A DNA stretch of 39,976 nucleotides from Treponema sp. (GTDB lineage Bacteria > Spirochaetota > Spirochaetia > Treponematales > Breznakiellaceae), in assembly GCA_031258115.1 (NCBI GenBank), contig JAIRNJ010000125.1, positions 1 through 39,976 of the forward strand, in the 5' to 3' direction. Of the stretch, positions 20,601-21,375 are shown piece after piece; position 1 is the stretch's first letter; every line of letters begins with the position of its first letter. The notes below the pieces were generated by a model, which was not told the DNA's origin, did not search any database, and saw nothing but the letters and a program-made list of their open reading frames with translations. A program made the position numbers and the translations under genes.

Positions 20601-21050
20601 GATCGCGTGGAACGGGAGGCTGCCTCCCTTTTCGGGAATGCAGGACTGGGCGGCACGGTTTCTCTTTTGGCTGAGGAAGCTTTTACGAAGGCGGAAGACT
20701 TCCTGAAAAGCGAAACCGGACGGCAAGCCTCCGCGTCTTTGCGCCGGGCAAGCGAGTTCGCATTCCGTCTGCCCCTGAAAAACGGCGCAACATCGATCCT
20801 TGTCAAAGGGATCATGGATCTGATCTTTGAAGATTCAGGCCATTGCATCATCGTGGACTTCAAAACCGACCGCTACAGAGACCCGGAACTTCACCGGATC
20901 CAGCTTGCCGCATACCGGGCGGCCTCTCCGGCTTTTTCGGACCTGGAACCCAGGATCTTTCTTTGCTACCTGCGCGATTTAAGTTTTCTGGAATGCAAGA
21001 AACTGACTGAAGAGGATCTCTTTTATCCGGGAATACCGGGGAGAACATAA
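17673..21050 (+). CDS. addA: AddA-like UvrD-family helicase/nuclease
   Basis: Walker A SAGAGSGKTMVLAERYV, VMIDEFQDNNRLQ, VGDEKQSIYRYRGAD, MTVHKSKGLEFPVVIL, FYVAATRAMKKLI; C-terminal nuclease IIVDFKTDRYRDPELHRIQLAAYR. Confidence 0.94.
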   Translation: MKKLNPEQIAARDAEQNVVVSAGAGSGKTMVLAERYVRLVTEGGLNVEEVLTLTFTRKAQAEMYARIYRNLASSTHPRAAEQLARFNRARISTLDSFCAAITRGGASRYGISGNFIMDEGADACRDCAVEILMRYKKEPAIRRLVAARSFDLIVDDLFSDFGMREVSFVSTETYVSLAEKQLAFLDAEKERVIESINRDLESILVLDISASGSKTAATLMEEAGKHHPLKNVRKPVSAESGKDQLKTLIEEAALFCSGGFPMPRSNAKDPALQKLRPLVESIREAAAALGNIAGTLLYREDIPVLGRIFDEYAALLLDTKRRLALLSFRDTAELALDILKHDMALRDHYKRQIKAVMIDEFQDNNRLQKELLYLVSEEPENHALNRIPLPHELSAKKLFFVGDEKQSIYRYRGADVSVFRGLSEELGGFLELNTNYRSTPELIEFYNSLFPGVFGRPEYAFEAEFRGINTDKREAENRPDGTGGGNVSPVELFLRKGETGAEGESLVPVPWRWAEALAAAERVYRLVKDGEAAWGDIALLFRSTTHQADYERVFRQAGIPFTASDPRGVYAEGPANDFYALLRLCLFPQDSNAYGAVLRSPLCAIGDETFLRIMLEREALPEPFPAEAPASWFQDEEDRARYVRGREIYERVRQKADREGIGLILAWLWYETGYQASLAADSGKQPGLDHFEYLYSLALDADSRGLSLAAFLDELAPLMGSTEKMESEAIAGGKNAVSFMTVHKSKGLEFPVVILPFSESPGMGERNSKPWYRHPEYGPAVNFKSDTARRKESAINYFWNIINEENKKKEAAELKRLFYVAATRAMKKLIIFGVEHPRSSQSFMGLLEAGFAAKPDIPHCKRKSYNLPFLKTYPRALSLLRSNVKAIGKGMEAGSLKAPTGAFTPKEPSVIRTSPSALQEAAAGGESHPEQLRGSELPDFRCESLLKGDLHLLFGTLCHRAIEILFDPEFPPEAKRDRVEREAASLFGNAGLGGTVSLLAEEAFTKAEDFLKSETGRQASASLRRASEFAFRLPLKNGATSILVKGIMDLIFEDSGHCIIVDFKTDRYRDPELHRIQLAAYRAASPAFSDLEPRIFLCYLRDLSFLECKKLTEEDLFYPGIPGRT

Positions 21051-21077
21051 ACCTGCCTGAATGTCCGGGGAGGGAAT

Positions 21078-21250
21078 AAAAAAAGCGCAGAGAGAGAAGG
21101 TAATGAAAGGCTCGTCGCATAACATAACCGCCGGATGAATACAAGCTGTCAAGCAAAACAACGCGGTACGTTCTCTCTGCGCTATAATTCCGTATTCGGA
21201 CTGCAAACAGCGGCCTTCTTGTGTCCGGGCCGTATACTGTTTGCATTTCC
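21078..21250 (-). ncRNA. Candidate structured small RNA, no known family recognised
   Basis: Minus-strand promoter (TTGTCA 21279-21274, 17-bp spacer, GTATAT 21256-21251); TGCAAACAG/CTGTTTGCA and CGGCC/GGCCG compound hairpin; loop CGGAC complementary to GTCCG; 12-bp closing stem AGCGCAGAGAGA/TCTCTCTGCGCT; then T-run to 21078. Confidence 0.5.
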
Positions 21251-21340
21251 ATATACTAAATATGACTATTTTTTGACAAAAAGGCAATAGTTTACTGAAA
21301 AAATAATGATAAAAAACATCAGGTAATTTGTTTGCAGCCC

Positions 21341-21375
21341 AAAAATCATGCTCACTGTTAAAAATCATGCTCACT
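21341..21375. repeat. Short tandem duplication (AAAAATCATGCTCACT x2, 3-nt spacer)
   Basis: Read directly at 21341-21356 and 21360-21375. Confidence 0.85.

Follow-up and report, generated by a model that had tools for sequence, protein, structure and literature searches.

Small RNAs of spirochaetes have been sparsely catalogued, with six annotated in the whole phylum, compared with 345 in Proteobacteria, according to a 2022 review (PMC9029176). In Borrelia, the supposed Hfq (BB0268) is a flagellar protein, and the true RNA chaperones are still being sought (PMC11607428). In this study we have analysed a window of 39,976 nucleotides, positions 1 to 39,976 of contig JAIRNJ010000125.1 from a Treponema genome, in which an earlier reading, here called the original prediction, placed a candidate novel structured small RNA on the minus strand between addA and a NUDIX gene. 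Like the intergenic trans-acting small RNAs of other bacteria, this candidate has a promoter-like region, a structured body and a T-run end. If the reading is true, a conserved small RNA in a genus without detectable Hfq would offer a concrete handle on Hfq-independent regulation; the surprise would be limited, because lineage-specific small RNAs are expected.

Results

The conserved block occupies positions 21078 to 21330 of the window on the minus strand, about 250 bp between addA and the NUDIX gene. The interval originally proposed, 21078 to 21250, lies within this conserved unit, but the alignment extends the unit about 75 bp further upstream, to about 21327. The features discussed below are, from 5' to 3' on the minus strand:

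21265 to 21327, minus strand: AT-rich upstream block (ATTACCTGATGTTTTTTATCATTATTTTTTCAGTAAACTATTGCC...), kept in each of the genus's five genomes (A2 alignment)
21282 to 21287, minus strand: candidate -35 box TTGCCT, invariant in the five genomes
21259 to 21264, minus strand: candidate -10 box CATATT, 17 nt past the -35 box, invariant in the five genomes
21197 to 21256, minus strand: 5' domain, with the hairpin TGCAAACAG-TATA-CGGCC/GGCCG-CTGTTTGCA at 21245 to 21202
21084 to 21183, minus strand: 3' domain, with an invariant 12-bp stem AGCGCAGAGAGA / TCTCTCTGCGCT (21183 to 21172 / 21095 to 21084) and a 76-nt interior
21151 to 21156, minus strand: UUGCUU, an invariant loop predicted to be unpaired
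21133 to 21141, minus strand: UAUUCAUCC, the longest stretch both invariant and predicted unpaired, inside an invariant 24-nt run (21144 to 21121)
21078 to 21084, minus strand: T-run after the 12-bp stem, resembling the 3' end of an intrinsic terminator, where conservation stops

The genome carrying the window spans 2.9 Mb in 326 contigs and is 92% complete, and the five genomes of its GTDB genus (G000 to G004) all entered the homologue set. The related records named Treponema are presumably metagenome-assembled genomes from termite guts, judging from isolate naming. A BLAST search returned exactly one strong match to the block in each of the five genomes, at 94-96% identity, and across the whole block the copies are 95-98% identical to that of the window. 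The original prediction had allowed for a repetitive element; with one copy in each of the five genus genomes, this and a MITE are ruled out. Beyond the genus, neither a DNA search nor covariance model R1 found a match to the block in the other 195 genomes of the family, and covariance model R2 of the 3' domain, run over 394 genomes of the order, gave the five genus copies and chance-level matches only. Three weak matches outside the genus were set aside, one lying within an ORF (L214), one being a generic terminator hairpin (L213) and one having an E-value at chance level for a search of many genomes (L212). Matches to the block in phage and plasmid records were likewise at chance level, and one exact 17-mer shared with viral contigs was taken as chance. 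This absence beyond the five genomes is weak evidence for a true restriction to the genus, because between genera non-coding sequence may change too much to be recognised.

The surroundings of the block vary from species to species. In G001 an extra 196-codon ORF without a Pfam match separates the NUDIX gene from the block, in G002 an insert of about 1.7 kb lies between the block and addA, in G003 a gene for a patatin-like phospholipase lies downstream of the block, and in G004 the NUDIX gene is found on a separate contig and the block has a different upstream sequence. Since the flanking genes differ between species while the block is kept, the block behaves as a unit independent of addA and the NUDIX gene. 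The intergenic site adjoining it is a small insertion hot spot, occupied in other species by an unknown 196-codon ORF (L149, 4025-4615), by lipoprotein-like and unknown ORFs (L150, 7950-9680) or by the patatin-like phospholipase gene (L151, 27-857). Nearby, the C-terminal end of addA (window 20999-21059) diverges past about 20999 in G002, and the addA contig of G003 ends at the same point. At 21341 to 21375, just upstream of the NUDIX gene, the window carries a tandem direct repeat of AAAAATCATGCTCACT with a 19-bp period; only two copies occur in the genome, G003 has one partial copy, and G001 and G004 have a different sequence there. This repeat is possibly the remnant of an insertion element.

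The original prediction noted that no gene in the same orientation follows before the convergent addA. In G000, G002, G003 and G004, all four genomes where it is visible, the downstream gene is indeed convergent on the block, the contig of G001 ending before this point. Because these genes point towards the block, the RNA would not be the leader of a downstream gene, and by gene orientation the block would be an independent transcription unit. Rfam scans at gathering and relaxed thresholds gave nothing credible for the block, in keeping with the earlier impression that it resembles neither tmRNA, SRP RNA or RNase P nor any known riboswitch consensus. If the block were a 5' leader or riboswitch left behind when its downstream gene moved away, it would likewise present a structured domain with a terminator-like end, but the convergent gene in four genomes and the absence of any Rfam riboswitch match leave this explanation extremely improbable.

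At fourfold sites, identity is 85-93% in addA, addB, nudix and mcp. The element differs in G002 at 13 of 251 positions, compared with 143 of 979 fourfold sites of the neighbour genes (p=1e-5), and its differences are also fewer than those at neighbour-gene fourfold sites in G001 (p=2e-4) and G004 (p=8e-4); the excess of conservation is not significant in G003 (p=0.15), where only 83 fourfold sites could be compared. Because element differences are rarer than fourfold differences in three of the four comparisons, the block evolves more slowly than sites close to neutrality. The conserved region is also sharply bounded. The upstream and promoter part is 93-99% identical in the A2 alignment and gives way to divergent flank, the 3' domain is 95-99% identical, and directly past the T-run identity drops to 28-83%.

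This conservation does not reflect a minus-strand protein. Across the five genomes the minus-strand ORF from the ATG at 21252 measures 130, 61, 23, 21 and 90 codons, and the indels behind these changes are small and mostly not multiples of three. A minus-strand protein is ruled out because the indels break the reading frames; the block is non-coding by this measure, as the original prediction had said in finding no convincing gene. On the plus strand, opposite the 3' domain of the RNA, we observed an 11-codon ORF (MKGSSHNITAG, window 21084-21149) with AGAAGG before its ATG. Its start (GTG in G004) and the Shine-Dalgarno-like motif are kept in most of the five genomes, which would suit a block encoding a peptide, either this one or the product of the frame from 21252; but every substitution in it changes a residue, no plus-strand promoter is conserved for it, it covers only a minor part of the block, and the longer frame is unstable in length. 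We therefore consider a peptide-coding block very improbable.

Upstream of the structured part, the -35 box originally chosen, TTGTCA, is variable, reading TTGTCA, TTGACA, TTGTCA, TCGACA and TCCACA across the five genomes. The invariant pair TTGCCT-17-CATATT is probably the promoter instead, and from its position the RNA is predicted to start at about 21251 to 21253 and to be about 170 nt long. A promoter scanner run on the block gave no standard sigma-70 match, and neither pair of boxes matches sigma-70 strongly. The AT-rich block further upstream is possibly an UP element or a regulator site. A Fur box at 21302 (14/19) was rejected, since an equal score occurs inside addA, regulon-like copies were not found, and the site lacks the palindrome present in the promoter of the genome's Fur-family gene. 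The promoter of that Fur/PerR-family gene carries a palindromic ATAATAATAACTATTATTAT-like site (L159 1440-1480, G000:C160), which suggests that the gene is autoregulated.

The window copy folds better than its dinucleotide shuffles (z = -4.5), and the five homologues give z values of -4.4, -4.2, -1.6, -4.5 and -4.9, between -4.2 and -4.9 in four of the five, while the lowest value among 134 sampled stretches of the window is -2.7. The letters and coordinates of the original prediction proved right throughout: the hairpin of 9 + 5 bp with its TATA bulge and 12-nt loop, GTCCG at 21201 to 21197, TCCG-AATA-CGGA, the perfect 12-bp stem and the T-run. Conservation separates these elements. The 12-bp stem, the inner ACCGC/GCGGT helix and the 9-bp stem of the 5' hairpin persist in every one of the five genomes, but the upper 5-bp stem of that hairpin frays in G002 and G003, and its loop varies in length. 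The fold prediction gives an outer 5' helix (GTAT/ATAC, UGGA/UCCG), some of whose pairing is lost in G002 and whose left arm may coincide with the transcription start. The H-type pseudoknot that had been proposed loses CGGAC in G003 and GTCCG in G002, and the competing TCCG/CGGA hairpin is broken in G001, G002 and G004, in each case uncompensated, so that a switch between the two is not conserved. No other 12-bp inverted repeat whose arms lie 40-120 nt apart occurs in the window, but the 12-bp stem by itself is weak evidence, because shuffled windows had 0-3 such repeats. A terminator search on the block gave no short-loop terminator match. The named helices have 0 double changes, not above shuffles, among five sequences too similar to be informative, and the consensus made by RNAalifold has one compensatory pair among these near-identical sequences.

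The complementary strand folds about equally well, so folding alone cannot fix the strand. This equality would also be seen if the fold were the by-product of an element acting as DNA, such as a regulator site, a recombination site that attracts insertions, or an addA terminator or spacer, and the differing genes inserted on either side of the block, with the 1.7 kb separating addA from the block in G002, would fit as well. Against such an element, the block is single-copy, its conserved T-run is found on one strand only, and at some 250 bp it would be long for a protein-binding site; nor does it look like an addA terminator, since no T-run follows the stem on the plus strand. An element of this kind is in our view unlikely.

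Discussion

Taken together, the conserved sequence with its sharp boundaries, the broken reading frames, the orientation of the genes and the absence of an Rfam family make a stand-alone small RNA the best reading, and we infer that the block is likely to be a minus-strand gene for an RNA of about 170 nt. The central idea of the original prediction, a stand-alone minus-strand small RNA outside Rfam, is thus supported, but its pseudoknot/hairpin switch and probably its promoter are not. Several points count against a small RNA gene: the named helices without double changes, the comparison with G003, the equal folding of both strands, the lack of a sigma-70 or short-loop terminator match, and the searches beyond the genus without a homologue.

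On this reading, the conserved AT-rich promoter region would drive an RNA of about 170 nt whose fold would comprise a 5' hairpin followed by a 3' domain, the 12-bp stem closing the latter and, together with the T-run, doubling as an intrinsic terminator. The favoured mode of action is in trans and without Hfq, with invariant stretches of the 3' domain that are predicted to be unpaired base-pairing with mRNAs, and with UAUUCAUCC as a candidate target-pairing seed and UUGCUU as a second candidate, both proposed from the predicted fold. Trans-acting antisense function by base pairing is, on this model, nearly as probable as its opposite. The fuller proposal, a new small-RNA family of one termite-gut Treponema genus that regulates mRNAs independently of Hfq and has a large domain whose closing stem is the terminator, is advanced tentatively. 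Most likely the candidate is a credible, undescribed, genus-level RNA, and an ordinary regulatory RNA in kind.

A small RNA dependent on Hfq needs Hfq in the organism, and no PF17209 match was detected in the 92% complete genome. CsrA is encoded there, a point shared with RNAs of the CsrB/RsmZ type, and the window copy has GGA motifs, as a protein-titrating RNA such as a CsrA sponge would. Unlike the CsrB/RsmZ type, however, the candidate has few and unconserved GGA motifs, most being lost in relatives (the loop GGA in G003, CGGA in G001 and G004), and the chance that it is such a sponge is very slight indeed. 6S RNA (RF00013) is similar to the candidate in length and is one long hairpin with a central bubble, whereas the candidate has two tandem domains and no Rfam match; the 6S model itself had no match in the window or in the genome. 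From the described intergenic trans-acting small RNAs the candidate differs in the 76-nt structured interior between the arms of its terminator stem, in a genome without detected Hfq, and in being known here from sequence alone. It resembles them in being single-copy and lineage-restricted, and in having no downstream gene in the same orientation.
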